A stretch of 64,000 bases of DNA, taken from contig NZ_CP160906.1 in NCBI RefSeq assembly GCF_041080865.1, forward strand, positions 3,123,629 to 3,187,628, given 5' to 3'. The notes under the pieces are model-generated. The model worked only from the letters and a program-made list of their open reading frames with translations. It was not told the DNA's origin and ran no database searches. The DNA is from Psychromonas sp. MME1. Lineage in GTDB: Bacteria; Pseudomonadota; Gammaproteobacteria; Enterobacterales; Psychromonadaceae. The translations under genes were made by a program, and so were the position numbers. Shown piece after piece: positions 14,421 to 56,099 of this stretch; the first letter of the stretch is position 1; each line of letters begins with the position of its first letter.

Positions 14421-14432
14421 GTGGTTATCCAA
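14421..14432. promoter_or_regulatory. Putative FadR-type operator (GTGGTTATCCAA)
   Basis: GTGG-TTAT-CCAA matches the locus-wide palindrome TTGG-N4-CCAA at seven of eight fixed positions. It lies about 115 bp upstream of the FG-GAP lipoprotein gene and is paired with the box at 14453. Confidence 0.55.
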
Positions 14433-14452
14433 TTTGGTGAGTTTGATTGCAA

Positions 14453-14464
14453 TTGGTTTTCCAA
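14453..14464. promoter_or_regulatory. Putative FadR-type operator (TTGGTTTTCCAA)
   Basis: Exact TTGG-N4-CCAA match in the promoter region of the FG-GAP lipoprotein gene, 32 bp from the box at 14421 (about three helical turns), which would allow cooperative binding. Confidence 0.65.
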
Positions 14465-14685
14465 AACTGTGATGGCGTTATCTTTTGGTTGTTCAATTTT
14501 ATTTTTGGTATGGGGTGCTTGAAAAGTAATGAATTTATTTAGCTTAAATATAAATGCATTGTTTACTTAGGGGCTCTATACTATTTAGTGTTGAGACCGT
14601 TGTTTCTATATTGAAATGTTGTGTCAGTTTTGATGTGGAATAACGCATGAATAGCTAAAATAGATACTTAAAGAGGGGGGAGATA

Positions 14686-14712
14686 AACCAGGCTGAAAAA
14701 TTCAACCTGGTT
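14686..14712 (-). terminator. Terminator of the orphan binding lipoprotein
   Basis: AACCAGGCTGAA at 14686-14697 pairs, with one mismatch, with TTCAACCTGGTT at 14701-14712, just after the minus-strand stop at 14721. Confidence 0.6.
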
Positions 14713-14720
14713 GATACTGT

Positions 14721-15332
14721 TTAGTCAATATAATCTATTGAGTGAACTACAATAGTTTGCTCTGAAATTGGACCAACCGAATAGAGTGTAAATTCTGCGA
14801 TCGTATTGAGTGATAAATCGCTACCTCCACGGTAACCTTCAAGGCCTTTTTTAGCGCCATCAAATAGGTAATTAACCGTTGATACACCTGGTGGCAGATA
14901 GATAGGAAGATCTAGTTGATGCTTCGCAGCGCCCATTATTCCTATGTTGTCGGAAACTTTCAACTCAATACGTGCTTCTTCTGTGCCTTTGTTTTCTAAC
15001 TCAAGCACTAACCCTTTTTTATGGCTCCAGTCATAGTTTCCACTGACAGGATGAAACTTGATACTTGGCCATTTTGAGTTAGCTTCTGACTGCGATACTC
15101 TATCAAAGATGATTTCTAATGAGTCGTCTACAACTTTATAACTTGTATATAACTTTGCAGTTTTAGCAAGGAATTCGCCTTCAGTAACGTTGATCTGCAC
15201 TGATTCAACATTTTCTTCTGCCATTCTGTCGGTTTCAATTATATTGCTATTGTCTGAACTGGTATTTGCACAACCAACCATCATTCCTGCTGTCATTAGG
15301 GCAATGGTAAGTTTTTTTTTCATCATTGACAT
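14721..15332 (-). CDS. Orphan lipoprotein like the GH50 N-terminal module
   Basis: A 203-aa lipoprotein with signal MSMMKKKLTIALMTAGMMVGC and a strong AAAGGAG site upstream. Mature residues 45-203 are a single beta-sandwich that aligns along its whole length with the first module of the GH50 enzyme at 39926. Shared segments include EFLAKTAKLYTSYKVV / AFLAKTENTHTSYEVV, KWPSIKFHPVSGNYDW / KWPNMKFRPVAGSYDW, and the identical GAA/GAATHQLDLPIY and HAIDYID-type ends. No catalytic domain follows, and the stop is followed by a terminator. The role is inferred: a surface agar or oligosaccharide-binding protein. An exact TTGG-N4-CCAA box lies 33 bp upstream. Confidence 0.8.
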   Translation of the reverse strand: MSMMKKKLTIALMTAGMMVGCANTSSDNSNIIETDRMAEENVESVQINVTEGEFLAKTAKLYTSYKVVDDSLEIIFDRVSQSEANSKWPSIKFHPVSGNYDWSHKKGLVLELENKGTEEARIELKVSDNIGIMGAAKHQLDLPIYLPPGVSTVNYLFDGAKKGLEGYRGGSDLSLNTIAEFTLYSVGPISEQTIVVHSIDYID

Positions 15333-15364
15333 GGTTTATCTCCTTTAAAATTTCCAACAACACG

Positions 15365-15376
15365 TTGGATAACCAA
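15365..15376. promoter_or_regulatory. Putative FadR-type operator (TTGGATAACCAA)
   Basis: Exact TTGG-N4-CCAA match 33 bp upstream of the orphan lipoprotein start, a repressing position close to the likely transcription start. Confidence 0.65.
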
Positions 15377-15660
15377 TTTTGATAAGTATACATACCAATA
15401 TATATATTTTTTGTGATCAGTTTATAATTGTGTGTTATTTGATGAGTTTCAATCACATTATTGAGATGATATTAGCTACTTTACGTTGTCTTTAAGTTGT
15501 TTTTTTTGGTTTTTACTTCACTTTTCTTTGCAAATCATTTCAAAAATGTATAAGAATTACACCAGTTTGTGTGAGTGTTTAACCTATTTTTGGTGGGGGG
15601 GGAGTAATTGATAGCGAACTAGTGCTTCATACTATTATTAGGTGTTTAAGTTGAAAATTA
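15377..15660. other. Intergenic region with G8 run
   Basis: AT-rich stretch upstream of the orphan lipoprotein, carrying an eight-G run at about 15595-15602. No gene is seen. Confidence 0.4.
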
Positions 15661-17746: not shown

Positions 17747-20602
17747 CTATTTAGAAAATCGATTTTGGTATAAACCTTTATTGAATGCTTTTGCCGCTTC
17801 AATTAGTTTTGTATAGGGTTGGTCAGCAATGGTGACAAAACCTACGTTGTAGTTTTCGCCATCCCACGCTCGGCCAGTTGCGGGTGAATCTAAGTATTGG
17901 AACCAATGTGCACCAACAAAGTAAGGGTTATCCACTACACTTTGCATGTACTTGGTATACATCTCAGCACGTTCTGCTTGGTTTGAAGCACTTACAATAC
18001 CACCATGGAAAAGACCGGTATCTGTCGAACCAAAGTGGAACTCACCAATCACGCTTGGTTTATCAATTTTTGCTAACCACTTTTTAAAGTGCGCTTTTTT
18101 AGGATCGTTGAGGTCGTTTGCATAGAGGTTATAACTCATCACATCGACGTATTTTGCCGCCCCTGCTGCAATCTCTGGCGTTACACCCCAGTCTGCAAAG
18201 CGAGCCCCTAAATACATATGATTAGGTAAAACACGATTTAACTCAGCGTCAACAGTTGAAAAATATTTCTCTGATAATAGTGTTAACATTGCAGAGTAAT
18301 CATTTTTCATACCTTTGTTTAACTTTTCGCGATGATCAAACGAAGTATCAAACTCCTTCCATGAACTAACGTTGGTATTCCATGCATTGTTCAATGCTTT
18401 GATTGTTGTATATTTACCTTTTAGATAGCTTGAAAATGCCGCTTTTGCAGGGCTCTCTTTTACATTATAAGATAGGGCATTAATGATTAAACCAAAGTGG
18501 TTGGCTTCATTAAGTACGTTACCCCAGCTGATCTCATTGTCGACAAAGATACCTACTAACCACGGGTCGTTTTTATCAAGTTGTTTAGCAAGTCCTTCTG
18601 CCATATCGCGCGCACTTACTTTAAACTCAGGGTCGAATGGATCATGAATCGGTCCCCAGTAGTCGTTACCGGTACTAATTCGCGCATGCTTGCCGTTGAT
18701 CCAACCGTGTGCTTCATAAGCAACTTTTGTTGTGCCATAAAAGGCAGGATCAATCCAGTTTCCTAGCGTTGTAAAGCCCCATTCTTGCATACGATCTAGC
18801 GTTACTTCGCGCCATATTTTCATCGCTTTTTCTTTGTTGGTATCATATTTACGCATTAGATTTGCACGATAAAAACTGAATACTTCACCTTTTTGTACCG
18901 CTCCTGAATGGACATAGCCAGCATAGTCATAGCTTTCTGCTAGAGGATCTGAATATTCAGGTAACCATTCAAACATTGAACGACGTAGTTCAGATTTCAA
19001 CTCAGCGCCTTCGCGTTTTTCAGGATTAGTAAAATCAATACCAGTTATTGTAACCGTGTCATCCATACGGATGTTATCAAGACCAGTCATAAAGAATAAG
19101 CAGCCTTCAGGATCAACTAAATTCCATTGACCATCGGTTTTTTCTGTACGGAAGTGACCGGTTGCCTTTAAGCGAGGCCCATCAGCCCAACCTCCAAATT
19201 TACATCTGCCTTGCATTGGCTGCGATTTACCAATATTGGCGAGCTCTTCTTGACCTTGTGTACGTAACTCTTCAACTGACTTGATTTTTTCGTTCCAATC
19301 ATCACCTCTAAATTGACCAAATTTATCCACAAGGCCTTCATAACGGCTTGTATCTGCATCAATATTTGTAATTAAACGAATAGAATCGACTATAATTTCA
19401 GCGTCTTTTGTTGGGTTTTGAAGATAGAGCTGAATCGAAACAATGTTTGATAGATCTAATGATTTTTCACCCCAACCGTAACTAATTGCTTGTGCATTGT
19501 ATGATTTTTTTGGCGGTTCACTACGCATGCCTGAAACAATTTTTCCGTCTAATTGACTAAGTGGCATGTAGTAGGTTGCTTTCTCATGTGGTTGTAGTGT
19601 CATATAGCTAGAGATACTATCTTTAACACCATCTGCTGTGCCGCCCCAGTTTTTGTTCTCAGCTTGATCCACGCGTAGAAACATTTGTACTGCATCATCG
19701 GTTGGATTTTCAATTTCAAAGGCTAGGCTAAAGTTATCTACGACAGACCAGTCCCAAGGTTCTTGTGCTTTGAAGGTAACATTAGGGTAGTCATCAGTAG
19801 CCGTGAATTTTATGTGTAATCCCTGACCTTCTTGTGTTTTTACTTTATTGATATTTGTAGCAACACTTCGTTCTGTGTCTACGAAACTGAGTTCACCATC
19901 ATCAAATTCAGTGATCATTTGTAGCGTTGGAATAGAGCCCGCTTCAATTACTTTTTCTTCAGCAGAGATAAAGTCACCAGTCGCATCGATAAGTTCGAAA
20001 TTATCAAGGATCACTGTTTGAGCGTCTATTGGCCCTTGTACAAAGACTTGCAGTTCAGCAAGTTTACGTAAGTTGAGGTTTTGCCCATCCCAGTAACCAG
20101 GTAGGTTGCGTTTACCACCGTTGAATAGCATTTCTACTGTTCTTGTTTCACCCGCAGGAATCTGTGTCGCATAGTTTAGTTGATTTGTTGCAGCACCCAT
20201 TTGACCAACGTTATCGACTAATTTGAAAATGATATAAGCTTCTGTATCTGTTGGATTTGTGACATCAACTTTAAAACTGCCTTTGTTGTTCCAATTCCAA
20301 GGTTCACCTTGTGGGAAAAATTTTGCATTTGGCCAGTATTTAAATTTATTCGCTTCAGACACCGCTTCAAAATTAATTTGAACCGCATTTTTGCCTGCTG
20401 TTACCCCCGATTTAGAGACCAATTCCGCACTAGCATGTGATGTTTGAGCATTTGACAAAAAGGATGCTGTTTCAAAGTCTGGCAGTGAAGTTGCAGTATT
20501 GCTTGACGCATCTATTGCCGTATTTTTGGTGTCTGTTGATTGACAACCAACTACACCAAGTAAAATTGCTGGTATAACCAACGAAAGTTTATTTTTAATC
20601 AT
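17747..20602 (-). CDS. GH50 beta-agarase, surface lipoprotein
   Basis: A 951-aa lipoprotein (signal ending ILLGVVGC, Cys 20). Two beta-sandwich modules (about 40-205 and 225-415) precede a GH50 catalytic barrel (about 420-950). Barrel landmarks are GRCKFGGWADG, TGHFRTEKTDGQWNLVDPEG, FMTGLDNIRMDD, the acid/base Glu in IFVDNEISWG, and the nucleophile in SVIGEFHFGSTD, ending VGAHWFQYLDSPATGRAWDGENYNVGF. GH50 enzymes are mostly exo-beta-agarases that release neoagarobiose or neoagarotetraose. The lipoprotein signal places it at the outer membrane or periplasm. It lies downstream of the LamB-like porin after a terminator. Confidence 0.95.
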   Translation of the reverse strand: MIKNKLSLVIPAILLGVVGCQSTDTKNTAIDASSNTATSLPDFETASFLSNAQTSHASAELVSKSGVTAGKNAVQINFEAVSEANKFKYWPNAKFFPQGEPWNWNNKGSFKVDVTNPTDTEAYIIFKLVDNVGQMGAATNQLNYATQIPAGETRTVEMLFNGGKRNLPGYWDGQNLNLRKLAELQVFVQGPIDAQTVILDNFELIDATGDFISAEEKVIEAGSIPTLQMITEFDDGELSFVDTERSVATNINKVKTQEGQGLHIKFTATDDYPNVTFKAQEPWDWSVVDNFSLAFEIENPTDDAVQMFLRVDQAENKNWGGTADGVKDSISSYMTLQPHEKATYYMPLSQLDGKIVSGMRSEPPKKSYNAQAISYGWGEKSLDLSNIVSIQLYLQNPTKDAEIIVDSIRLITNIDADTSRYEGLVDKFGQFRGDDWNEKIKSVEELRTQGQEELANIGKSQPMQGRCKFGGWADGPRLKATGHFRTEKTDGQWNLVDPEGCLFFMTGLDNIRMDDTVTITGIDFTNPEKREGAELKSELRRSMFEWLPEYSDPLAESYDYAGYVHSGAVQKGEVFSFYRANLMRKYDTNKEKAMKIWREVTLDRMQEWGFTTLGNWIDPAFYGTTKVAYEAHGWINGKHARISTGNDYWGPIHDPFDPEFKVSARDMAEGLAKQLDKNDPWLVGIFVDNEISWGNVLNEANHFGLIINALSYNVKESPAKAAFSSYLKGKYTTIKALNNAWNTNVSSWKEFDTSFDHREKLNKGMKNDYSAMLTLLSEKYFSTVDAELNRVLPNHMYLGARFADWGVTPEIAAGAAKYVDVMSYNLYANDLNDPKKAHFKKWLAKIDKPSVIGEFHFGSTDTGLFHGGIVSASNQAERAEMYTKYMQSVVDNPYFVGAHWFQYLDSPATGRAWDGENYNVGFVTIADQPYTKLIEAAKAFNKGLYQNRFSK

Positions 20603-20806: not shown

Positions 20807-22081
20807 TTACCACCAAGCTTCAAATTGAGCGCCATAGGTTACGGCATCGTGTTTACCCATTTTCACATCGCCATCTAATCCCCAGCGGTCATAAACTTTA
20901 GTTTCGACATCTTGTTTTGCATAGGTTACAAAGAAGTGAATAACAGGACGATCCCAGAAGCCACCACCTATGTGTAAGTCTTGACTAAGTGTAACTTTAT
21001 GGCCTTTGTTTTTCCCATCATCACCGGAGTTTACAGCAGTAAAATCGATCATTTCATAGCCAAGTTCAAGCTGTGTAGAAGTGCGTGTATTCCAGTTATA
21101 AGTATTTCGAACTACAAATGTATCCCAATCAGAATCGATTACTTTCATACCTGATTCATCGCGAGATTGTTGGTCGTATCTTGCTGATTCATGTTGCCAA
21201 ATATATGAAACACTGAAAGCTTGGTTGAATGCATGGTAACCTTGCCAGAAACCACCGATTTGATACTCTGGTAAAGGCTCCCAACTACGTGTCATTGAAC
21301 CTGATGCGTTATTTGAATAACGAATGAATAATTCGTTATAAGAGCCCCAATCTCCTAAGCGGAATTTTACAGCACCTTGATAAGCATCACGCTTATTTTT
21401 CTGTTTGTTTTCACTATCTGGACCTGATGGAGTACCAAAGTTTGCATATAGATTCATTGATAAGTCATCAAGTAGTTTGATGTCTGATAATGAAGAACTA
21501 AATGCCATTAACTCACCAGCACCATCTGCAGGCGCTTCAGCATAAAGGTTGCGTGTAACACCAAAATGAAATTTAGCAAAACCGAAATCGACGTTTTCAA
21601 TACCAAAACCAGAACCATCATTAGACATTGATTGTGAATCTGTTAAAAAGGTTTCTACACGGTTGAAGTAACGCTTACCAGCCCAGACCGTTGCACTAGG
21701 GTTTGAAGGAATAAGGCCTGAACCTTGTGTATAAAGCTCATCCAGATCAAGGTCTGTTCCATACACAACATTGGCTTTTATGCCCCAATCCATATCATTT
21801 GTTGTTTCCCAACCATGAGCGATATGCATCTCTAACCAGTTTGCTTCATTACCAAGGCGGCCACCTGATGAGTTAGTGTAGGTATTGCCTGGTAAACGGA
21901 AGATATTCATACCATTATTCGCCCAGTCATAACCCGATTTATTTAAGATATCATCACTCGTAGTAGCCATGCCTCCTTTTGCGTAACCATGGTAACTAAA
22001 GCCTTTGTCAATTGCTTGAGCCGAAAAGGCAAGCATTATTCCGGAAAACAATGCTGAGTATTTTAAAAGGTTGTTTTTCAT
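20807..22081 (-). CDS. LamB-type outer-membrane carbohydrate porin
   Basis: A 424-aa outer-membrane beta-barrel with a signal peptide cut after AFSAQA. Maltoporin-family features are the start FSYHGYAKGGM, the RLGNEANWLEMHIAHGWET strand, WAGKRYFNRVETFLTD, the SGFGIENVDFGFAKFHFGV loop, and a C-terminal aromatic strand ending FEAWW. The family forms trimeric 18-strand sugar channels. In this locus the cargo is inferred to be neoagaro-oligosaccharides released by the surface GH16 and GH50 enzymes, delivered to the CUT1 transporter at 27-31 kb. A near-match operator (22168-22179) and a weaker CRP-like site (about 22345-22360) precede it. Confidence 0.88.
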   Translation of the reverse strand: MKNNLLKYSALFSGIMLAFSAQAIDKGFSYHGYAKGGMATTSDDILNKSGYDWANNGMNIFRLPGNTYTNSSGGRLGNEANWLEMHIAHGWETTNDMDWGIKANVVYGTDLDLDELYTQGSGLIPSNPSATVWAGKRYFNRVETFLTDSQSMSNDGSGFGIENVDFGFAKFHFGVTRNLYAEAPADGAGELMAFSSSLSDIKLLDDLSMNLYANFGTPSGPDSENKQKNKRDAYQGAVKFRLGDWGSYNELFIRYSNNASGSMTRSWEPLPEYQIGGFWQGYHAFNQAFSVSYIWQHESARYDQQSRDESGMKVIDSDWDTFVVRNTYNWNTRTSTQLELGYEMIDFTAVNSGDDGKNKGHKVTLSQDLHIGGGFWDRPVIHFFVTYAKQDVETKVYDRWGLDGDVKMGKHDAVTYGAQFEAWW

Positions 22082-22515
22082 TTTTCGTCCTTAGATAAAT
22101 GATGAAGTAAAGTTATAAATAATCGATTTCCTAAAATAGGTGTTTATTTATGGGGGTATTTTAAGGAATGGACAACCAATTTACAGTGATAGGTTTAACA
22201 CTTTGGTTATATTATTAACCCTTATTATTTGTAGGTATATATTGGCTTTTGTTGTTCTTGTGCAATAAAGCATTGTTTATCAGTTGTTTAGGGCGTTTTG
22301 TTGGGTTTTTATACTTTTGTTTGTTAAGTGTTAATATTCATAATTGTGCTATGAATCACGAATTGGTAAATGATTGTTGTTTGTTGGTAGTTTGCCACTC
22401 TCTTGTTGGTAGTTGAATGGATGGTTATTTTTCCTTCGTTTTCTGTAAGTTGTTGAAGTTGAGCTTGTTTTTATGTTGCCCTATGTCCTTGTAATTGGTT
22501 GAACTGTTTGCATTT
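22082..22515. other. Porin promoter region
   Basis: A long upstream region of the porin with the box at 22168 and a CRP-like sequence, TGTGC-TATGAA-TCACG, at about 22345-22360 (eight of ten core bases). No gene is seen. Confidence 0.4.
22168..22179. promoter_or_regulatory. Putative FadR-type operator (ATGGACAACCAA)
   Basis: ATGG-ACAA-CCAA matches TTGG-N4-CCAA at seven of eight positions, 87 bp upstream of the LamB-like porin start. Confidence 0.55.
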
Positions 22516-25180: not shown

Positions 25181-25948
25181 ATGGATAAAGTAAATACTAA
25201 AAGACGTTATTACGATATTGGTTTACAAATTGAAGGGTTGCTCTATTCTGGTGTTTTTCAAGCTGGCGAGCGACTGCCATCAGAGCGCGAATTAAGTGAA
25301 AGATTTGAGACTAGTCGTGCAACCATTCGAGAAGCAATTATTATGCTTGAATTGAAAGGGCTCGTTGTTGTGCGTCAGGGGGCAGGAATTTATTTTATTG
25401 ATTCGCCAGATAAAATCACTAACCGTTCTTTTATTCCCCATAGTGACATTGGCCCCTTTGAATTGTTGCAAGCGCGACAAATCATTGAAAGTAATATAGC
25501 TGCGTTTGCGGCAAGCCAGATTAAAATTAATGAACTGCGTGAATTAAAGAGAGTACTCGACGCTCAAATTAATGAACTCGATGGTGACAGCGAAAAATTT
25601 GAAGAGTTAGACCGTCAGTTTCATAGTTTGATTGCTGAATCAACACAAAACAGAATGTTGATTAATCAAGCTAATGAGATGTGGAAATCGGTTAGAACTA
25701 ACAATCCTCTTTGGCGTGAACTTAATAATCAGTTTCTCCATAATATTGAATTAAAAAAGATGTGGCTCAATGATCATAAGCGTATTCTTTTAGCATTACA
25801 AAAAAGATCTTCTGAAGAAGTACGTCAAGCGGTATGGCAACATATAGAAAATAGTAAACAACAGTTAATGAAAATAGCAGGTAGTGATGTAGAGAATGTA
25901 GATTTAGAGGATTACTTCTTTAGCTTAGATCTTGACATTGAAATGTGA
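25181..25948 (+). CDS. FadR-subfamily GntR regulator (FCD domain), copy 1
   Basis: A 255-aa regulator with an N-terminal winged helix (YYDIGLQIEGLLYSGVFQAGERLPSERELSERFETSRATIREAIIMLELKGLV, about residues 9-62) and a C-terminal FCD ligand domain (about 85-235) with the helical motif DRQFHSLIAESTQN and HIENSKQQLMK. UxuR/ExuR/PdhR-type members bind TTGG-like palindromes and respond to sugar acids. It is closely similar along its length to the protein at 32288. Divergent from the cytoplasmic GH50, it is a strong candidate for local control of agar genes, with an anhydrogalactonate- or KDG-type effector inferred. Confidence 0.88.
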   Translation: MDKVNTKRRYYDIGLQIEGLLYSGVFQAGERLPSERELSERFETSRATIREAIIMLELKGLVVVRQGAGIYFIDSPDKITNRSFIPHSDIGPFELLQARQIIESNIAAFAASQIKINELRELKRVLDAQINELDGDSEKFEELDRQFHSLIAESTQNRMLINQANEMWKSVRTNNPLWRELNNQFLHNIELKKMWLNDHKRILLALQKRSSEEVRQAVWQHIENSKQQLMKIAGSDVENVDLEDYFFSLDLDIEM

Positions 25949-28956: not shown

Positions 28957-28987
28957 TTACCTTTTTAATAATAATAACTAAGTTAAA

Positions 28988-29011: not shown

Positions 29012-29018
29012 GACAGAT

Positions 29019-30269: not shown

Positions 30270-30346
30270 TTTTACCATCCTTTATTAACCCAGAACCAAA
30301 TAGTGGCGCTGGAAGTTTTTGGTTGTTGTGAGTGTCACTATAAAAA

Positions 30347-30358
30347 TTGGCTTACCAA
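30347..30358. promoter_or_regulatory. Putative FadR-type operator (TTGGCTTACCAA)
   Basis: Exact TTGG-N4-CCAA match between the divergent binding-protein gene (minus) and the ATPase gene (plus). It could govern both arms of the transporter. Confidence 0.65.
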
Positions 30359-30455
30359 ATTTTTGCTAAGGTTAACAACTTTCCGCGAAAGAGAATGTGA
30401 TTGGGCTCAAATTAAGTGACTCGACGTATTAAAAGTGAATGAAATAAACTTAAAT

Positions 30456-30471
30456 TATGAATTAAATCACA
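30456..30471. promoter_or_regulatory. Possible CRP site before the ATPase gene
   Basis: TATGA-ATTAAA-TCACA matches nine of ten core CRP positions, about 100 bp upstream of the MalK-like gene. Confidence 0.5.
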
Positions 30472-31971: not shown

Positions 31972-32287
31972 AAGTATGGATGTATTAATATATCAATCAA
32001 CATAGGTCAATTAATCGCCTAAATTGGTATGGGTGTCTTTTGAATTTAATTTCCTCTTAAATCGTGATTAACGCCTCTAATAATTAGTGGCTTTTGTTAT
32101 TTACCGCTGTCCACTGCTCTTTCACCCCTTTTTATTTTGTTTTTTTGACCTATTTTTTATGTTTGTATTTTATTTAAGATCAACAAAATAGCTGTTTCAG
32201 CGCTTCATAACGCAAAAACATCAATTTTGGTCGGCAATTAACCCCTTTTTACGGTATATTGGTTGATGATTGGTAATAGAGGTATTT
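31972..32287. other. Promoter region of the second FadR-type regulator
   Basis: AT-rich upstream region. TTGG half-sites occur at about 32227 and 32260 (TATTGGTTGATGATTGG) but no full TTGG-N4-CCAA palindrome. No gene is seen. Confidence 0.4.
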
Positions 32288-33043
32288 ATGGGAAATTTAA
32301 GTTCAAAAAGACGTTACTTTGAGATTGGCACACAGATAGAAGAGCTGCTCTACTCTGGTGTCTTCAAAGTGGGGCAGAGGTTGCAATCCGAGCGAGAACT
32401 GAGTGAAAGGTTTGATACTAGCCGTGCAACAATTCGAGAAGCGATTATTATGTTGGAGCTGAAGGGACTGGTTTCGGTTAAACAGGGCTCGGGCATTTTC
32501 TTCAAAGAAAACATTCAGTCGAGTATACCGAGATTAGGCTCGCTTGAAAATGATATTGGACCATTTGAATTATTACAAGCAAGGCAGATAGTTGAAAGTA
32601 ATATTGCCTCTTTTGCTGCGACTCAAATTAAACCAACTGAGCTTAGAGAATTGAAGGAGGTATTGACCTTACAACAAAATGAGATTAATGGTGATAGCAA
32701 AAAGTTTGAAAAATTAGATCAAAAATTTCACCAGTTAATATCAGAATCGACTCAGAATCGAGTGCTTATTCAACAAGCCGCAGAAATGTGGAAAAATGTA
32801 CGGGTAACAAATCCTTTGTGGTTACAGCTTAATACAAAGTATCTGCATGAAGAGAAGTTGCAAGCACAATGGATTAATGATCATAAAAGAATATTAGTTG
32901 CCTTACAAAGGCGCTCTCCTGAAGATGCGAAACAAGCGGTATGGCAGCATATAGAAAATAGTAGGCAAGAGCTGATGAAAATAGCCAGTGCCTATGATGA
33001 AGATGTGGATTTAGATGATCTGTTTTTTGCTTCAGATATTTAG
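32288..33043 (+). CDS. FadR-subfamily GntR regulator (FCD domain), copy 2
   Basis: ATG 32288 has AGAGG upstream. A TTG at 32270 is open but less likely. The 251-aa protein starts MGNLSSKRRYFEIGTQIEELLYS. It has the winged helix LQSERELSERFDTSRATIREAIIMLELKGLVSV and an FCD domain with ETFELLQARQIVESNIASF-like and HIENSRQELMK segments. It is a paralog of the protein at 25181, with almost identical recognition helices (SRATIREAII), so both should bind the same operator but may read different ligands. It stands just upstream of the anhydrogalactose dehydrogenase gene, between transporter and catabolic genes. Confidence 0.88.
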   Translation: MGNLSSKRRYFEIGTQIEELLYSGVFKVGQRLQSERELSERFDTSRATIREAIIMLELKGLVSVKQGSGIFFKENIQSSIPRLGSLENDIGPFELLQARQIVESNIASFAATQIKPTELRELKEVLTLQQNEINGDSKKFEKLDQKFHQLISESTQNRVLIQQAAEMWKNVRVTNPLWLQLNTKYLHEEKLQAQWINDHKRILVALQRRSPEDAKQAVWQHIENSRQELMKIASAYDEDVDLDDLFFASDI

Positions 33044-33111: not shown

Positions 33112-33139
33112 TAGTAATTGGTTTAATGTTTGCTACAAT

Positions 33140-33151
33140 GCGGTAAACCAA
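33140..33151. promoter_or_regulatory. Putative FadR-type operator (GCGGTAAACCAA)
   Basis: GCGG-TAAA-CCAA matches six of eight positions of TTGG-N4-CCAA, followed by TT. It lies 65 bp upstream of the aldehyde dehydrogenase, downstream of another half-site (AATTGGTTTAA). Confidence 0.45.
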
Positions 33152-33215
33152 TTGCCGTTTGATAGATTTAAATGGTTTATAAACTTAAATTAACAGCGAT
33201 TATGATGGAGTAAAA

Positions 33216-38711: not shown

Positions 38712-38746
38712 GCTTTTCTCCAATATAAAAATTGACATTAGGAGGA

Positions 38747-38758
38747 AAGGTAAACCAA
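38747..38758. promoter_or_regulatory. Putative FadR-type operator (AAGGTAAACCAA)
   Basis: AAGG-TAAA-CCAA matches six of eight positions and lies 36 bp upstream of the GH117 start. Confidence 0.45.
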
Positions 38759-38961
38759 TATTGCCTTTAAGGCAATTGAAGAGTGCATTTTTACAGAAAG
38801 AAGTTGTGCAGATAGTGATTTGTCGCACAAATAAATATTGTCACATGAACGAAATAACACTAGTCGTTGCTCTTATGTTGCTGATTTGTAACTGTTTGTG
38901 TGATTTTTCTGTTTTTTGTTGAGTATTTATCATTTTCCGCTATTGAATCTATTGGTTGTAA

Positions 38962-38973
38962 TTGGTTTTCCTG
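38962..38973. promoter_or_regulatory. Putative FadR-type operator (TTGGTTTTCCTG)
   Basis: TTGG-TTTT-CCTG matches six of eight positions, mid-way between GH117 and the YhcH gene. A TTGG half-site (TATTGGTTGTAATTGG) lies just beside it. Confidence 0.45.
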
Positions 38974-39004
38974 TTAGCATTGAAAGTACTGCTTCGCGCC
39001 TATT

Positions 39005-39016
39005 TTGGTAAACCAG
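39005..39016. promoter_or_regulatory. Putative FadR-type operator (TTGGTAAACCAG)
   Basis: TTGG-TAAA-CCAG matches seven of eight positions. It extends to TTTTGGTAAACCAGA and lies 95 bp upstream of the YhcH-family gene. Confidence 0.55.
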
Positions 39017-39110
39017 ATGGTGTTTGCTGTGTTGTCACCATTAAATATAATGTTTAATGTGATGTGCTAAGGGTAAGGTTTTTTATAATTGAAATTAAGG
39101 ATGTAATTAT

Positions 39111-49370: not shown

Positions 49371-50459
49371 TTAAACCTCATATTGCGCTATTTTCTGCCA
49401 ATCGAATTCTACGCCAACACCAGGCTCGTCAGAAGCGACTGCACGATAGTTTTCTACTACTAATGGGCGCTTAGTATATTCGTCGATAGGGAAGCTATGT
49501 ACCTCTAACCAACCTGTATCAAAAGCAGATACTAGGCTTACATGCAACTCTTGCATCCCATGCGTACAAACGGGAATTTCATTTTCAGTAATTAAATTAG
49601 CTGCTTGTAACCAACCTGTAATACCGCCACAGTTTGATGCATCCGGTTGTGCAAAGCCTAGTTTAGCTTGATCCATGGCATAACCAAATTCGTGAATGGT
49701 ATGCAGGTTTTCACCCATCGCTAATGGAATAGAGGTGTTGTCAGCAATTTTTGCAAAACCTTTATAATCATCTGGTAGTGTTGGCTCTTCAAACCAAGTG
49801 ATATCGTACTGCTCAACCGCTTTTGATAGCGAGATTGCTTGGTCAACTGTTAGTGAGTAGTTGGCATCGATCATAAAAGTAATATCTGGGCCAATTAGCT
49901 CTCTAACCGCTTTGATGCGATCAATATCTTCTTGCGCATTTTCACGGCCAATTTTAATTTTAACCGCGTTAAATCCAGCATCTAAATAGCCTTGGATATT
50001 TTTAAGTAGTTTCTCTAATGGGAATAAGAGGTCAATACCACCACAATAAGCTTTACAGGTATTGTTTTTACCTCCGGCCATTTTCCATAGTGGTAAACCT
50101 TCGCGCTTACCTTTTAAGTCCCACAATGCAATATCAACGCTCGACATCGCAAAGCTTGAGATACCGCCACGTCCAACATAATGAATATGCCACTCCATGA
50201 AATCGTAGATCTGAGCTATTTGAGTTGCATCTTTACCGATAAGGGCGGGTTGAATATCATGTTCAAGCATCGCTTTGATAGCATAACCACCTTTACCACC
50301 CGTGTAAGTATAACCTGTGCCTTGTGATCCATCTTCGAGCGTGATGGTTGTTGTGATCAGTTCAAAATGGTCGTGATCACCATGTTTTGCATCGGATAAA
50401 ATCTCTTTTAATGGAATTTTGAATAGCTGCGTTTTTATCGTTTTGATTGCTGTATTCAT
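49371..50459 (-). CDS. Probable 3,6-anhydro-L-galactonate cycloisomerase
   Basis: A 362-aa enolase-superfamily protein of the mandelate racemase group. The N-terminal capping domain has [39 protein letters not shown]-type loops. The barrel has catalytic Lys in NAVKIKIGR (about 165), metal ligands in [14 protein letters not shown] and MGENLH, and the general His in CTHGMQELH. In agar degraders a homolog opens 3,6-anhydro-L-galactonate to 2-keto-3-deoxy-L-galactonate. It ends a three-gene operon with KDPG aldolase (12 bp) and KDG kinase, and lies in the same locus as the aldehyde dehydrogenase that makes its substrate. Confidence 0.88.
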
Positions 50460-50471
50460 CTGTCTAGCTAC

Positions 50472-51098
50472 CTATTTTAAGTCAGTTACAATTTCGTTAA
50501 TAAGGCGGCCAATCTCTTCCCAATTTCCGCTTTTAACAAGTGCAGGATCAACCATCCAAGAACCGCCACAAGCAAGTACTGCTGGCAGTGCTAAATAATC
50601 TTTAATATTTTTTGGGTTAATACCACCCGTAGGCATCACTTTAATTTGCCCGTAGGGAGCAAGTAGTGATTTTAGCATGGGTAGGCCACCAGATGCTTCT
50701 GCTGGGAAAAACTTAACGGTATCTAAGCCAAGTTCAATCGCTCGTTCAACTTGTGATGGGTTATTAACTCCAGGAATAATGGCAATATTATGTTTTTTAC
50801 AAGCAGCCACAGTATTTGGGTTAAGGCCTGGTGAAACGATAAAGTCAGACCCTGCTTCTTTTGCTGCAATAACTTGCGCTTCATTTAAAACTGTACCTGC
50901 ACCGATTAAGATATCAGGGTATTGCTTACGTAATAAGCGAATAGCTTCAACAGCTGCATCAGAGCGGAATGTGATCTCAGCTACAGGTAGACCGTTTTTA
51001 ACTAACTGTTCACCAAGTGGAAGAATCAATTGTGCATCATCAACAGCGATCACTGGAATCACTTTAAGTGATTGTAATGCTTCATTTAACTGGTTCAT
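50472..51098 (-). CDS. KDPG aldolase paralog (agar pathway)
   Basis: A 208-aa class I aldolase close to Eda at 2198. It has VIAVDDAQLILPLGEQL, EITFRSDAAVEAIRLLRK, GAGTVLNEAQV, SPGLNPNTVAACK, Schiff-base Lys in TVKFFPAEASGG, and PTGGINPKN. It lies between KDG kinase and the cycloisomerase (spacings 12 bp), so its KDPG should come from anhydrogalactose. The presence of two aldolases, one in each regulon, avoids cross-control. A KDPGal specificity cannot be excluded from sequence. Confidence 0.92.
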   Translation of the reverse strand: MNQLNEALQSLKVIPVIAVDDAQLILPLGEQLVKNGLPVAEITFRSDAAVEAIRLLRKQYPDILIGAGTVLNEAQVIAAKEAGSDFIVSPGLNPNTVAACKKHNIAIIPGVNNPSQVERAIELGLDTVKFFPAEASGGLPMLKSLLAPYGQIKVMPTGGINPKNIKDYLALPAVLACGGSWMVDPALVKSGNWEEIGRLINEIVTDLK

Positions 51099-51110
51099 TA
51101 TTTTTATATC

Positions 51111-52082
51111 CTATTTAGAAGTGGGTTCGTTAATTCTTTCTTGTACCTGTTGTAGAGTCGGTAGCGGTGCTACTGCGCCATAACCTGTAATGGTAATCGA
51201 AGCGGTTGCATTAGCATGCTTTAAGCACTCTTGTAAACTTAAACCATTTACGTAATGAGTACAAAATGAGCCTGCGAAAGAATCGCCTGCTGCTGTTGCA
51301 TCAACAGGTGTTACTTTATGTGGTGCAATGCTAAAACGCTGTGTTGCATCAGCAACGGTTGCGCCTTCAGAGCCTCGTTTAAGTACCACTATTTTTGCAC
51401 CTAACGCTAGGTAGTGATCTATAATTTCATCTGCATCTTCTAAGCCCGTTAATAGTTGTGCTTCATCTAAGCTTGGGAAGCAGATATCAACCATTGATGC
51501 CGTTTGACTAATGATCCCTTTCGCTCTTTCAAGCGACCACAGTTTTAATCGTAAATTAGTATCATATGAAACCAATGTGCCATTTGCTTTTGCAATTTTG
51601 ATCGCTTCAAAAACAGCATCGCAACTTGATGCGCTTATTGCCTGAGTGATTGCGGTAACATGCAGTAACTTCGCTTTTTTGATTGCTTCAATTGGGAGTT
51701 GGTTGTCTGTAATAAGACTAGCCGCTGAGCCTTTACGTAAAAAAGAGAAGTGGTGCCCATCACTGTTATGAGTAATGAAATAAACACCAGTATGTGCATT
51801 TGGATTGCTAACTACATTGGAAATATTAACTTTTTCTTCTTTCCATAGGTCGATAAAACGTTGTCCAAATTCATCACAACCTAGATGAGTGAGCATACCC
51901 ACATCTGCACCTTGGCGTGCTGCTGCAATAGCAAAATTAGATGCATCTCCACCAAACCCACTCAAGAAGTCGGCTCCCGTATCGCTGACCTCTTTAATTT
52001 GACTGAATTCGTACATTGGTTCACCAAAGCTTAGGATTTGGCAAACGTCACTTTCATTTTCAACAGTTTCTTTTATGCTCAT
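51111..52082 (-). CDS. kdgK: 2-keto-3-deoxygluconate kinase (PfkB family)
   Basis: A 323-aa ribokinase-type sugar-acid kinase. The N-terminal part reads ILSFGEPMYEFSQI and FLSGFGGDASNFAIAAARQGADVGMLTHLG (substrate site). The C-terminal PfkB signature is TPVDATAAGDSFAGSF with the catalytic Asp. It is the first gene of the minus-strand operon KDG kinase - aldolase - cycloisomerase. It phosphorylates KDG (or the galacto epimer) to the aldolase substrate. An exact TTGG-N4-CCAA box lies about 92 bp upstream in the divergent promoter shared with the dehydrogenase operon. Confidence 0.9.
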   Translation of the reverse strand: MSIKETVENESDVCQILSFGEPMYEFSQIKEVSDTGADFLSGFGGDASNFAIAAARQGADVGMLTHLGCDEFGQRFIDLWKEEKVNISNVVSNPNAHTGVYFITHNSDGHHFSFLRKGSAASLITDNQLPIEAIKKAKLLHVTAITQAISASSCDAVFEAIKIAKANGTLVSYDTNLRLKLWSLERAKGIISQTASMVDICFPSLDEAQLLTGLEDADEIIDHYLALGAKIVVLKRGSEGATVADATQRFSIAPHKVTPVDATAAGDSFAGSFCTHYVNGLSLQECLKHANATASITITGYGAVAPLPTLQQVQERINEPTSK

Positions 52083-52173
52083 AACGCTCTATCACCTTAT
52101 AATAACGACTTGATATAGTATGTGTAACTTATTTTAGATTTATCTATTAGAGATAGTATGTGGCTAATGTTAT

Positions 52174-52185
52174 TTGGTCAACCAA
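52174..52185. promoter_or_regulatory. Putative FadR-type operator (TTGGTCAACCAA)
   Basis: An exact TTGG-N4-CCAA match with a near-perfect 12-bp dyad, 92 bp upstream of the KDG kinase start and in the divergent region with the dehydrogenase operon. Confidence 0.7.
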
Positions 52186-52326
52186 AACGCGCAATGAATG
52201 TAGAGCAGTGTCACAAAATAGAGTTTGCTTTAAGCTAGGTTGTTTGCGGGTTTGCCCCCTTAGGAGCCTTTGTTTTATTGACATTTAGTTGCTTTACTAT
52301 TTTTTTTTTAATATTTTTTCTTTTAA

Positions 52327-52338
52327 TTGGTTATCCAT
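52327..52338. promoter_or_regulatory. Putative FadR-type operator (TTGGTTATCCAT)
   Basis: TTGG-TTAT-CCAT matches seven of eight positions, extended by AA upstream (AATTGGTTATCCA). It lies 124 bp before the mannitol-dehydrogenase-family gene. A further half-site (ATTGGTTGG) follows at about 52349. The rest of 52083-52461 holds no gene. Confidence 0.6.
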
Positions 52339-52461
52339 TTGCCATTGATTGGTTGGTGTTCTTTGTTTACAATTACCTAAAGTGTTAATGAGTTGCTGTG
52401 TAATACAGCTGGTACATACTGTTCACAATGATTATTGGTTAATTAATCAAGGTAGGTAAAT

Positions 52462-53922
52462 ATGAATTATCCGGATATGAGATCCGCTGTTTATTCTTCT
52501 CAAACATCATATGTTCGAGAAAATTTAAAGTCTGACATTGTGCACATTGGGTTTGGTGCATTTCATCGTGGGCATCAAGCTGTTTACAATGATTTAACGA
52601 ACGATATATCAGATACTCAATGGGGTATCTGTGAAATTAATATGTTTGGTCCTGCGGATCTTATTGATGATTTAAAAGCCCAAAATAACCTATTTAGTGT
52701 TGTCGAAAAATCTGCAACAGAAACTCATACGCGTTTAGTAAGAACCGTTTCAGAAGCGATTCATACGCCCGTTGACGGTATTAATGCTGCGATAGAAAAA
52801 ATGTGTGAAGCGCAAGTGAAAATCGTTTCTTTGACTATCACAGAGAAGGGCTATTGTGTTGATCCTCAAGCGGGTACTTTAGACTTTACGAATTCACTTA
52901 TCGTACATGATTTAGAAAACAGTAATGCGCCTCAATCTGCTATTGGTTTGATTACTGAAGCTTTACGTATCCGTAAGGAGCAAGGTTTAGCGCCATTTAG
53001 TGTCCTCTCTTGCGATAATATTCCTGAAAACGGTCATTTAACTAAAAATGCAGTATTAGCGTTTGCATCAGCGGTTGATAAATCACTGGGTGCATGGATT
53101 GAGGAAAACGTTAGTTTTCCTAGTACCATGGTGGATCGTATCGTACCTGCTATGACGCCAGACCAATTCGAAGTTATTCAAAAAGAAACAAATTATCTCG
53201 ATCCTTGTGGTGTTGTGACTGAAGATTTCCGTCAATGGGTTATCGAAGATAATTTTGTTGCAGGTCGCCCAGATTGGGACAAAGCTGGTGCAATGTTTGT
53301 TGCTGATGTATTGCCCTATGAAGAGATGAAACTGCGTATGTTAAATGGTAGTCACTCATTCTTAGCTTATAACGGCAGCCTTGCTGGTTATGAGTTCATC
53401 TATCAATGTATGGAAGATGAAGCTCTAAAAGCTACAACACTGCGCCTGATGCTAGAAGAGCAAGCAAAATCGTTGAGCCCTAGCTTAAATGTTGACCTGC
53501 CTGAGTATGCCAACTTATTAATTGCCCGTTTTAGTAATACCAATATTAAACATAAAACTGGACAAATCGCGATGGACGGTTCTCAAAAACTGCCTCAGCG
53601 TGCTGTTGATCCGTTTATTGAACTACAAAAACGTCAGATCAAATCTGCATGTTTACCTGTATTAGTCGCGGGTTGGATGCATTACGTCATTAAGCTAATC
53701 CAGAAGGGTGAAACACTAGTTGATCCTATGGCTGAGACGTTTATAGAGATCGTTGTAGCTGATACTGACTTACAAACTAAATGCAATGCACTTTTTGCTA
53801 TTGAAAAAATCTTTGGCAAGCATGCAAAAAATTCACTGTTTGCTGAGCAGGTAACAACAGCATTCAATGCCATAACAGAGCAAGGAATTGAATCAGTGAT
53901 CAATTCTTTAGCAACCAAATAG
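52462..53922 (+). CDS. Mannitol-dehydrogenase-family oxidoreductase (UxuB/UxaB-like)
   Basis: A 486-aa NAD-dependent polyol/sugar-acid oxidoreductase. The Rossmann start is IVHIGFGAFHRGHQAVYND. Family motifs are SLTITEKGYCVDP, VLSCDNIPENGHLTKNAV, FPSTMVDRIVPAMTP, and the catalytic MLNGSHSFLAYNGSLAGY (with active-site Lys/Asn/His in KLRMLNGSHS). UxuB- and UxaB-type members reduce the C5 keto group of fructuronate and tagaturonate. It is first in a plus-strand operon with an LgoD-like and an Ldh2-like dehydrogenase. By analogy it is the best candidate for reducing 2,5-diketo-3-deoxygalactonate to KDG. Substrate inferred. Confidence 0.88.
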   Translation: MNYPDMRSAVYSSQTSYVRENLKSDIVHIGFGAFHRGHQAVYNDLTNDISDTQWGICEINMFGPADLIDDLKAQNNLFSVVEKSATETHTRLVRTVSEAIHTPVDGINAAIEKMCEAQVKIVSLTITEKGYCVDPQAGTLDFTNSLIVHDLENSNAPQSAIGLITEALRIRKEQGLAPFSVLSCDNIPENGHLTKNAVLAFASAVDKSLGAWIEENVSFPSTMVDRIVPAMTPDQFEVIQKETNYLDPCGVVTEDFRQWVIEDNFVAGRPDWDKAGAMFVADVLPYEEMKLRMLNGSHSFLAYNGSLAGYEFIYQCMEDEALKATTLRLMLEEQAKSLSPSLNVDLPEYANLLIARFSNTNIKHKTGQIAMDGSQKLPQRAVDPFIELQKRQIKSACLPVLVAGWMHYVIKLIQKGETLVDPMAETFIEIVVADTDLQTKCNALFAIEKIFGKHAKNSLFAEQVTTAFNAITEQGIESVINSLATK

Positions 53923-53936
53923 AAGGCTTACTTAAT

Positions 53937-54959
53937 ATGAAAACACTTATTTGTCATGAACCGAACTCGATTGAATACATTGAACGTGAAATGCCTTCAA
54001 TTGAAGCAAACGAAGTACTTTTAAAAACCCGTGCCGTAGGTATTTGTGGAACAGATATTCACGCTTATGCAGGTCGTCAACCATTCTTTTCATACCCTCG
54101 CGTACTAGGTCATGAAATTGCAGGTGAAGTGGTTGAGTTAGGTAGCGCAGTTACCTCAATTACTAAGGGCAAACGTTATTCAGTTATTCCTTGTATCCCA
54201 TGTGGTAAATGTAGTGCATGTAAAGATGGCAAAACAAACTGCTGTGAGAATGTTTCTCTATATGGTGTACACCAAGATGGTGGTTTTTCTGAATACTTAG
54301 CGGTACTAGAAGATAACTTAGTTTTGTTACCGGAGTCAGTTTCTGATTCTCAAGGAGCATTAGTTGAATGTTTTGCTATCAGTGCACATGCCGTGCGTCG
54401 TGCTGAAATTAAATCTACGAATAACGTGCTTGTTGTTGGTTCTGGTCCAATTGGCTTAGCTGCTGCTGCGATTGCTAAAGCGGAAGGGGCGACGGTTGCG
54501 GTTGCTGATGTAACTGATTCTCGTCGTGAACATGTTGAAAAAGCACTTGGTATTCCTGCTTTAAACCCGTTAGAAGATTCTTATGTTGCTGATCTTCGTG
54601 CTGCATTTGGCGGTGAGTTACCGTGTGTTGTAATGGATGCAACGGGTAATAAAGGTTCAATGAGCCGTGCTGTTGAATTGATTCGTCATGGTGGTAAATT
54701 GGTATTCATCGGTTTATACATTGGTGATTTGGTTATTGATGATCCGACATTCCATAAGAAAGAGACCACTCTATTAAGTAGCCGCAATGCAACGCGCCAA
54801 GATTTTGAACGTGTTATTGAATTGATGGCTTCTGGTGATATAAGTGAAGCGATCATGAAAAATAAAGACTATGACTTTGACACCTTTGGTCTCACTTACA
54901 AAGAAGATGTTGTCGAAAACCTTTCGCTGGTAAAAGGCGTTATCAACTTTAATTCTTAA
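53937..54959 (+). CDS. Zinc-type dehydrogenase, LgoD-like (C5 of sugar acid)
   Basis: A 340-aa medium-chain alcohol dehydrogenase, very like L-galactonate 5-dehydrogenase LgoD of E. coli. Catalytic Zn ligands are in VGICGTDIHAYAGRQPFFSYPRVLGHEIAGE. The structural Zn site is CIPCGKCSACKDGKTNCC. GVHQDGGFSEYL and VGSGPIGLAAAAIAKAEGA give the Rossmann site. LgoD oxidises C5 of L-galactonate to tagaturonate, and 2-keto-3-deoxy-L-galactonate has the same C5 configuration, so oxidation to the 2,5-diketo acid is a strong inference. The gap to the upstream gene is 14 bp and to the next gene 10 bp. Confidence 0.9.
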   Translation: MKTLICHEPNSIEYIEREMPSIEANEVLLKTRAVGICGTDIHAYAGRQPFFSYPRVLGHEIAGEVVELGSAVTSITKGKRYSVIPCIPCGKCSACKDGKTNCCENVSLYGVHQDGGFSEYLAVLEDNLVLLPESVSDSQGALVECFAISAHAVRRAEIKSTNNVLVVGSGPIGLAAAAIAKAEGATVAVADVTDSRREHVEKALGIPALNPLEDSYVADLRAAFGGELPCVVMDATGNKGSMSRAVELIRHGGKLVFIGLYIGDLVIDDPTFHKKETTLLSSRNATRQDFERVIELMASGDISEAIMKNKDYDFDTFGLTYKEDVVENLSLVKGVINFNS

Positions 54960-54969
54960 GGATAAATTC

Positions 54970-55977
54970 ATGTCGACTCAATTAGTAAAAGAAGAAAAAC
55001 TACGCGAACTTTCGTTAGCTAAACTATTGGCTGCTGGACTTGATGAAGCAACCGCTGCTGAAGTTGTTGATGTATTAGTTCACGCTGATTTAACAGGTGT
55101 GCATTCTCATGGGGTTATGCGTGTAGAGCATTACTGTCATCGTCTTGCGATGGGCGGATTAAATAAAGAAGCTAAATTTTCAATCGAACAAATATCACCT
55201 TCTGTTGCTGTACTTGATTCAGATGATGGTATGGGGCATTCAGGTCTTATTGCTGCAACCAAACACGGCATTAAAATGGCTGCTGAGACAGGTTTAGGCT
55301 TTGTGAGTGTTAAAAACACTTCGCACTGTGGTGCGTTATCTTACTTTATGGAGCAAGCTACAAGTGAAGGTATGATTGCGATAGCAATGACGCAGACAGA
55401 TACTTGTGTTGCACCATATGGTGGCGCTGAACGCTTTTTAGGGACTAATCCAATTGCATTTGGTTTCCCAGTTAAAGATTCTCACCCGATGATTGTCGAT
55501 ATGGCAACAAGTGCCACTGCATTTGGTAAATTACTTCATGCTAAAGAAACTGGGCAACAAATTGGAGAAGGCCTTGCGATTGATAAAGATGGCAATGGCA
55601 CAACGGATCCACACAAAGTTGAGAACTTATTAACGTTCGGTGGCCATAAAGGATCAGGCCTCGCACTCTCTATTGATGCGTTAACAGGCGGATTGATGGG
55701 GGCTAACATGAGTAACCATATTAACCGTATGTATGGTGATTATGAGAAAATGCGTAAATTAGCAAGTCTTGTTATTGTTATCAGCCCTGAAAAATTAGGT
55801 AACCCACTATTCTCTTTTGCAATTGGTGCAATGATCAATGAATTACGTGCGGTAAAACCTGTTCCTGGTGTAGATAAAGTGATGGCGCCAAATGATCCAC
55901 AAGTAGCGTATAAAGCTAAATGCTTGGTCGAAGGTATCCCTGTTGCTGATGGTGTTTACGAGTATTTAATGAGTTAA
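54970..55977 (+). CDS. Ldh2/malate-lactate-type dehydrogenase
   Basis: A 335-aa NAD(P)-dependent oxidoreductase of the Ldh2 (YlbC/AllD/DlgD) family. Visible segments are VHADLTGVHSHGVMRVEHYC with a catalytic His, SDDGMGHSGL, FVSVKNTSHCGALSYF, FLGTNPIAFGFP, DMATSATAFGK, and GHKGSGLALSIDALTGGLMG. Family members reduce 2-keto acids such as 2,3-diketogulonate, or oxidise ureidoglycolate. As third gene of the dehydrogenase operon it could reduce a 2-keto-3-deoxy or diketo intermediate, perhaps as an overflow. I cannot fix the substrate. A strong terminator closes the operon. Confidence 0.85.
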   Translation: MSTQLVKEEKLRELSLAKLLAAGLDEATAAEVVDVLVHADLTGVHSHGVMRVEHYCHRLAMGGLNKEAKFSIEQISPSVAVLDSDDGMGHSGLIAATKHGIKMAAETGLGFVSVKNTSHCGALSYFMEQATSEGMIAIAMTQTDTCVAPYGGAERFLGTNPIAFGFPVKDSHPMIVDMATSATAFGKLLHAKETGQQIGEGLAIDKDGNGTTDPHKVENLLTFGGHKGSGLALSIDALTGGLMGANMSNHINRMYGDYEKMRKLASLVIVISPEKLGNPLFSFAIGAMINELRAVKPVPGVDKVMAPNDPQVAYKAKCLVEGIPVADGVYEYLMS

Positions 55978-55998
55978 TGTTTCATCCTGTTTTTTGAT

Positions 55999-56037
55999 AA
56001 AAAGCCCACTTTTAATGTAAATTAAAGTGGGCTTTTT
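55999..56037 (+). terminator. Terminator of the dehydrogenase operon
   Basis: AAAAAGCCCACTTT and AAAGTGGGCTTTTT pair (with one bulged T, loop rich in A/T) 22 bp after the stop. The symmetrical A/T runs make it bidirectional. Confidence 0.9.
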
Positions 56038-56087
56038 GGCTTTATTTAAGGCGTAAATTTTAGATTATGAGATGTATGAATGATTAA

Positions 56088-56099
56088 TTGGTTAACCTA
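56088..56099. promoter_or_regulatory. Putative FadR-type operator (TTGGTTAACCTA)
   Basis: TTGG-TTAA-CCTA matches seven of eight positions, and TGGTTAACC is a perfect dyad core. It is preceded by AA. It lies 87 bp upstream of the chemoreceptor gene at 56187, linking that gene to the agar regulon by inference. Confidence 0.6.

Follow-up and report, generated by a model that had tools for sequence, protein, structure and literature searches.

Transcription factors of the FadR subfamily of the GntR superfamily are described as binding carboxylic acids and other small ligands; in their operators, GT and AC are 2 nt apart for the UxuR type and 3 nt apart for the ExuR type (PMC4494728). In Escherichia coli, the uxuA and uxuR genes are reported to be repressed by UxuR (PMC10016265). 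A regulated red-algal galactan system is the carrageenan regulon of Zobellia galactanivorans, which includes an anhydrogalactose dehydrogenase and cycloisomerase (PMC5698469); GntR-like factors of carrageenan loci are likewise mentioned in a figure legend of that paper. Our search of the open-licence PMC literature, with subscription literature and regulon databases outside its scope, found no UxuR-type regulator of agar catabolism in gammaproteobacteria. Here, we describe palindromic boxes in an agar-degradation locus of Psychromonas sp. MME1, within a 64,000-nt stretch of contig NZ_CP160906.1 (positions 3,123,629 to 3,187,628; hereafter, the window). With good confidence, we assign these boxes, whose core is WTTGGTNNACCAAW, as operators of a UxuR-type repressor of the FadR/FCD group, FCD1, probably together with a second regulator, FCD2. 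The boxes before agar genes would very probably be docking sites of a sugar-acid-sensing repressor, the same ones standing before matching genes in several agar-eating genera.

The locus shares with the E. coli UxuR regulon of hexuronate catabolism a FadR-subfamily FCD protein with a near-identical recognition helix, sites of the TTGGT-N2-ACCAA type and the predicted control of a UxuB-type dehydrogenase, but here the boxes precede genes for agar and 3,6-anhydro-L-galactose (AHG) utilization, including those for a porin, transporters, GH117, surface proteins and a chemoreceptor. The E. coli ExuR regulon also has a related FCD regulator, but differs in its 3-nt operator spacing. The Zobellia system similarly serves red-algal galactan catabolism, but its regulator, CgrA, is an AraC-family positive regulator, and its sugar is D- rather than L-anhydrogalactose (PMC5698469). 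An original prediction, made from the letters of the window, had proposed that a TTGG-N4-CCAA palindrome marks a locus-wide agar regulon under FadR-type regulators. This interpretation proved largely right.

A symmetric 14-bp matrix was built from 24 distinct 14-mers, picked by eye for their resemblance to the UxuR-type consensus, in the divergent regions of 13 loci (L005–L017), none of them from the window. Scores of ≥13 were counted as strong matches in tests of density and scores of ≥11 as boxes in the promoter tally. In the agar part of the window (10700–57983), there were seven intergenic matches ≥13 (52173, 56087, 52326, 22167, 30346, 14452 and 39004) in 7,247 bp, against one in 41,760 bp of the same genome, sampled as 17 stretches of 20 kb (Fisher p ≈ 1e-5). 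Stretches L100, L105 and L106, which had been chosen for FCD genes or a motif match, were excluded from these background counts. An eighth match, 38746, became intergenic when the GH117 start was corrected: this box falls within the mechanical open reading frame (ORF), but translation probably begins downstream of it, near 38712, at a start with a plausible ribosome-binding site, and AAAGGTMAACCAAT is found again near the GH117 start in relatives. The density of matches ≥13 was 9.66 per 10 kb in intergenic and 1.25 in coding DNA of the agar part, compared to 0.24 and 0.23 in the background; the equal density in coding regions that the original prediction had named as contrary to it was thus not seen. 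First-order resampling of the same intergenic segments yielded 0.16 matches ≥13 on average and never more than two in 500 trials, compared to the seven observed.

The same boxes recur in other genera. A scan with the cycloisomerase yielded 28 loci, and the divergent arrangement of the dehydrogenase operon and the kinase–aldolase–cycloisomerase operon was kept in nine of them (L006–L010, L013–L016). All 13 training loci have the boxes in their divergent regions, and in seven the kinase is preceded by TTTGGTTGACCAAA; the genomes of all 13 encode FCD1 orthologues (55–81% identity). In a further 12 genomes with the cycloisomerase and AHG dehydrogenase (L018–L029, here called FCD1−), the best relative of FCD1 is at most 42% identical or is absent. 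With the 600 bp before the dehydrogenase operon, the training divergon, masked, 18 FCD1+ sequence groups from 17 genomes had 75 matches ≥13 in 82,886 bp of intergenic DNA and 34 in 548,099 bp of coding DNA, compared to none in 29,216 bp and six in 214,359 bp in the FCD1− loci; p-values overstate independence here, because some of the genomes appear to be those of training loci and many are close kin. L005, L012 and L017 served for training and for the regulator tree, not for this density test, and the distant homologues L030–L032 were excluded from box counts.

At the level of promoters, boxes ≥11 stood before 117 of 149 genes of the agar and AHG classes and before 15 of 282 other ORFs, with divergent genes sharing boxes. 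These totals include the two training promoters (KDG (2-keto-3-deoxygluconate) kinase, 14/14; dehydrogenase operon, 17/18) and two transporter classes that were added after the boxes had been seen (10/11 and 8/8); without these four, 68 of 98 remain. By class, boxes preceded 11 of 12 GH117 genes, 12 of 17 AHG dehydrogenase genes, nine of 10 aga971 genes (the window being the exception) and two of six aga951 genes, as well as 15 of 21 FCD1-class genes (the window is among the exceptions) and one of three FCD2-class genes. Smaller classes were the FG-GAP surface protein (3/3) and the LamB porin (2/2 scored), both including the window's own, and MalK (3/4), for which Aliagarivorans has boxes in the corresponding divergent region. 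The sole other MCP2-homologue promoter that was scored had no box (2.2). None of 11 GH2 genes had a box ≥11, and the signal is therefore not simply a property of anything in an agar locus. In FCD1− loci, boxes ≥11 preceded one of 12 cycloisomerase genes and three of 95 other ORFs.

The half-sites ATTGGT and ACCAAT paired most often at a spacer of 2 nt, with 111 intergenic pairs (13.3 per 10 kb), while the other spacers between 0 and 8 gave 6–21 pairs, the ExuR-type spacer of 3 nt giving 21. Applied to E. coli K-12, the matrix found two sites each before uxuA (18.9 and 15.2) and uxuR (16.7 and 12.6), and nothing above 9.1 in the uxaCA-exuT-exuR region. Of the UxuR/ExuR-type boxes originally proposed, it is thus the UxuR type that was borne out, but not the ExuR type.

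The bare 12-mer TTGG-N4-CCAA is, by comparison, a mere hint. Five exact matches were found in the window against a mean of 1.39 in shuffles (one of 100 shuffles reaches five), and 48 against 31.4 when one mismatch was allowed (none of 100 as high). The whole contig (3.59 Mb) has 75, compared to 51 for the reversed control, or ≈1.3 per 64 kb, in agreement with the original estimate of about one by chance. Sites of TTGGNNNACCAA were upstream of genes in four of five cases inside the window; of the 37 outside, 33 were coding, three lay between genes with no gene start inside 450 bp, and one was upstream. We rejected the 12-mer counts as proof, as they are too weak and suggestive alone; the 14-bp matrix from other genera's boxes is far sharper. 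The four exact boxes listed originally (14453, 15365, 30347 and 52174) are all present, but a fifth, at 52016 inside the KDG-kinase gene, had been missed, and 15365 scores only 11.7. The near-matches at 22168, 52327, 56088, 39005 and 38747 are strong, but those at 14421, 33140 and 38962 are weak.

At the kinase operon, the box in the window contains the −35 hexamer of the promoter TTGACC-N17-TACTAT. The same arrangement, a box over the −35 followed by TANNNT at 17–18 nt, was present in the window and in all ten relatives examined, a comparison from which L005, L012 and L017 were excluded and in which the gene behind the box in L011 is the cycloisomerase itself. This predicted layout is the classic one for repression by exclusion of RNA polymerase. 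A defined overlap between box and promoter was seen at the kinase/cycloisomerase promoter only, and promoter-like sites were about as numerous as in shuffles (70 vs. 63.3 and 53 vs. 57.4).

Neighbouring intergenic boxes tend to be separated by whole helical turns, with spacings that cluster at 21, 31–33, 41–42, 53, 64 and 84–85 bp; exceptions include 26, 44 and 76 bp. For 50 spacings from 13 sequences, the resultant at 10.5 bp was 0.72, with a best period of 10.65 and none of 1000 random sets as high. Reducing the data to 36 distinct genus–spacing pairs gave 0.67 (0/1000), and to 24 distinct spacing values, 0.53 (21/1000). Sixty permuted matrices with matched numbers averaged 0.15 and reached at most 0.55. 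At low thresholds, the FCD1− loci gave 0.10–0.23, and the background of the same genome 0.34–0.60, a noisy value from only 8–25 spacings that is not clearly zero and includes the transporter promoter described below. Coding-sequence spacings at low threshold showed another period, 8.8 (5/1000), and the uniform null is therefore imperfect. In the window, the triple array at 14420/14452/14484 (32 and 32 bp), the third box of which was absent from the original prediction, fits the phasing best, and the pair 52326/52434 (108 bp) less well. Such phasing likely reflects cooperative binding on one face of the DNA. Extra half-sites at 7–12 nt beside GntR-family sites have been described (PMC4494728); the helical phasing of neighbouring boxes is a new observation here.

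The sole background match ≥13 in the same genome, at ≈2,890,624, stands before a sugar-porter gene (L221:9009-10676) with UxuR-type boxes 53 bp apart upstream. The porter closely resembles a box-bearing transporter that adjoins the cycloisomerase in genomes of the Agarivorans group and others; its gene is likely a member of the regulon outside the window.

The two FadR-type regulators that the original prediction had placed in the locus are indeed there: both FCD1 and FCD2 match the Pfam GntR and FCD models (67.1 and 78.1 bits for FCD1, 61.6 and 81.6 bits for FCD2; cut-offs, 27 and 24.3). They are 66% identical to each other, and the best NCBIfam model for both is UxuR (NF007588). Four FCD proteins are encoded on the contig, but only these two are close to the UxuR type; of the others, one shares 31% identity with FCD2, and the second had no match to FCD1 or FCD2 in that search. 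FCD1 is 57% identical to E. coli UxuR in the helix-turn-helix (HTH) domain and 41% in the effector domain, and the recognition helices of FCD1 and FCD2 are nearly that of UxuR. The conserved Asp and His residues of the FCD domain form a metal site; in FCD1, D144, H148, H199 and H221 are invariant across 30 aligned rows, among them E. coli UxuR and ExuR, a count that excludes an outlier of the same genome from L004. The HTH of FCD1 is 96% identical to that of an Agarivorans-group protein (G034), compared to 74.5% for FCD2, which is also 74.5% identical to FCD1 in this domain. We propose FCD1 as the main regulator because of this identity and because its orthologues accompany the training loci and are lacking above 42% identity in the FCD1− genomes. 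FCD2 clusters, with weak support (92/26), with the second copies found in Vibrio sp. qd031 and V. ulleungensis; it is a paralogue whose specificity probably overlaps that of FCD1.

The roles could also be exchanged, with FCD2 as the repressor of the agar locus and FCD1 serving some other function. The AHG dehydrogenase gene directly follows FCD2 in the window and also in Vibrio sp. qd031, which has two boxes scoring 16.0 upstream. However, the box-rich Agarivorans-group and Neiella genomes have one match each at E ≤ 1e-50, and these single matches are nearer to FCD1 (75–79%) than to FCD2 (68–71%), with the exception of G175 (68 vs. 67%). Together with the closer HTH and the more frequent upstream boxes of the FCD1 class, this makes the exchange unlikely. 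We find it less probable still that the boxes only look UxuR-like and belong to the IclR-type regulator or an unrelated factor: an IclR-type regulator is present in the window and in some relatives, but the FCD1− loci L018, L019 and L028 retain an IclR homologue and yet have no intergenic box ≥13, box presence tracks FCD1, and the motif matches the sites before E. coli uxuA and uxuR. Chance recurrence in A+T-rich intergenic DNA, with which the roughly fourfold excess of the bare 12-mer might be reconciled, is scarcely credible in view of the resampling, the recurrence across genera and the empty intergenic DNA of the FCD1− loci.

Several observations weigh against the assignment of the boxes to a UxuR-type repressor, FCD1 with FCD2. 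Although boxes stand before many agar genes, recur across genera and track FCD1, the regulon is not fully locus-wide: in the window, no box ≥11 precedes aga753/FCD1, aga971, aga951 or either GH2 gene, and the boxes of the FCD2 and AHG dehydrogenase promoters are weak (9.0 and 9.7). The aga951 gene may be transcribed by read-through from the box-bearing LamB gene. Six of the 18 FCD1+ groups have at most one intergenic match ≥13 outside the masked training divergon (none in G341, G359 and G075b; one each in G083, G151 and G093). The strict TTGGTNNACCAA also occurs outside the locus in four Agarivorans-group genomes, which have 19–27 sites each, compared to 12–18 for the reversed control. A general search for a −10 at a fixed distance from the boxes gave no clear peak, neither FCD1 (204.8 bits) nor FCD2 (191.7 bits) reaches the UxuR equivalog cut-off of 442, and the two cannot be told apart by motif. 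Binding and expression are, moreover, predicted here from sequence. The one-sided ATTGGTTNACCA does cluster at the locus in the same four genomes, with 3/5 (G055), 3/8 (G137), 3/10 (G034) and 5/12 (G175) sites within the 40-kb locus, and 4, 4, 4 and 8, respectively, when this is widened by a further 35 kb.

Table 1. Boxes, regulators and genes of the agar locus (positions in the window; families assigned with Pfam and NCBIfam).
Feature	Position	Strand	Score	Remarks
Box 1 of triple array before FG-GAP/Big_2 surface protein	14420..14433	-	10.6	
Box 2 of triple array	14452..14465	-	14.7	
Box 3 of triple array	14484..14497	-	11.5	
Box before 203-amino-acid ORF 14721-15332	15364..15377	-	11.7	
Box before LamB-type porin	22167..22180	-	15.3	
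Box-like match in FCD1 codons 13-17	25217..25230	.	16.0	Peptide IGLQI
Box between solute-binding-protein/permease operon and divergent MalK gene	30346..30359	.	14.7	
Weak box before AHG dehydrogenase gene	33139..33152	+	9.7	
Box in GH117 leader	38746..38759	-	13.1	Upstream of likely start
Weak box, GH117/YhcH divergent region	38961..38974	.	9.3	43 bp from 39004 box
Box in GH117/YhcH divergent region	39004..39017	.	13.9	
Box-like match inside KDG-kinase gene	52015..52028	.	15.9	Peptide FGEPM; probably no operator
UxuR-type box before KDG kinase-aldolase-cycloisomerase operon	52173..52186	-	17.3	Over −35 hexamer TTGACC
Box before dehydrogenase operon	52326..52339	+	15.3	Promoter class belongs to training region
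Second, weaker box before dehydrogenase operon	52434..52447	+	10.2	Relatives' counterparts near same start
Box before chemoreceptor gene	56087..56100	+	16.3	
FCD1, GntR/FadR-subfamily regulator	25181..25948	+		Proposed principal repressor
FCD2, paralogous regulator	32270..33043	+		Adjoins AHG dehydrogenase gene
IclR-type regulator	48223-48996			
Agarase-CBM/GH42-like agarases	17747-20602, 22560-24821, 39926-42841			
LamB porin	20807-22081			
ABC transporter, MalK gene divergent	27194-31597			
Putative AHG dehydrogenase (an aldehyde dehydrogenase)	33216-34658			
Putative GH117 (a GH43-like protein), with adjoining YhcH protein	37632-39575			Name GH117 from original prediction
Operon: PfkB-type (KDG) kinase, 2-keto-3-deoxy-6-phosphogluconate (KDPG) aldolase, enolase-superfamily protein taken as cycloisomerase	49371-52082	-		Pfam
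Operon: mannitol-type (UxuB-like) dehydrogenase, zinc alcohol dehydrogenase, Ldh2-type dehydrogenase	52462-55977	+		Pfam, NCBIfam
Chemoreceptor	56187-57983			

The kinase–aldolase–cycloisomerase and dehydrogenase operons are both conserved cassettes in relatives (Table 1). The two box-like matches in coding DNA were rejected as operators. That at 52015 is codon-constrained, as Agarivorans L010 keeps the conserved FGEPM while the box is broken; at 25217, codon constraint is the probable cause, since IGLQI is conserved in most rows and box-like DNA occurs in only four relatives' groups. The gluconate module has no upstream box ≥11, as originally noted; its two matches are 2449 (coding) and 3636, in the break between two gntP ORFs.

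Some further features of the locus and its relatives were noted. The solute-binding protein (29069-30278) is divided between a pair of overlapping ORFs that differ in frame; its two halves match one frame in Aliagarivorans L015, and a frameshift or assembly error is possible. The GntP permease (2816-4191), an NIT-domain chemoreceptor (45689-47703) and a catalase-peroxidase (61934-63451) also look split or truncated, and the occurrence of several such genes in a single window points to decay or to indel errors. Many boxes have CRP-like sites nearby, in the window (30396, 30456 and 33096) and in relatives, hinting at joint catabolite control; their density is 10.8 per 10 kb in intergenic DNA of the window, compared to 4.9 in the background, nearly all with one or two mismatches. 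The loci of Budvicia (L012) and Enterobacillus (L017) have the cycloisomerase, the dehydrogenases, an FCD1-like regulator and boxes, and their 21-kb stretches contain no match to the window's agarases.

From these data, the following scheme can be proposed. Without agar, repressor dimers would sit at each promoter on between one and three boxes that share one face of the helix, so that binding could be cooperative, and transcription would be blocked; at the KDG-kinase operon, the repressor would cover the −35 itself. During breakdown of AHG, an acidic intermediate of the pathway would bind the FCD domain and release the repressor. That such an intermediate is the natural effector is suggested by the ligands of the FadR subfamily and by the invariant Asp and His residues. 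Release would switch on the porin, the transporters, GH117/YhcH, the kinase–aldolase–cycloisomerase and dehydrogenase operons, the surface proteins and the chemoreceptor, and the distant sugar transporter at ≈2.89 Mb would be under the same regulator.

Defining the operator together with its regulator opens the way to a direct test of how bacteria sense a red-algal polysaccharide. The matrix is ready for annotating agar genes in other genomes and has already picked out an unlinked transporter, and the system is a possible agar-responsive expression switch. It is conceivable, though we hold this only tentatively, that several genera have in common an agar regulon in which operator arrays at whole helical turns allow cooperative, switch-like control by a single acidic product, and in which the FCD1/FCD2 duplication tunes strong and weak promoters differently. 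A broader question that can be tested also arises from the phased arrays, that of cooperativity within the FadR subfamily.

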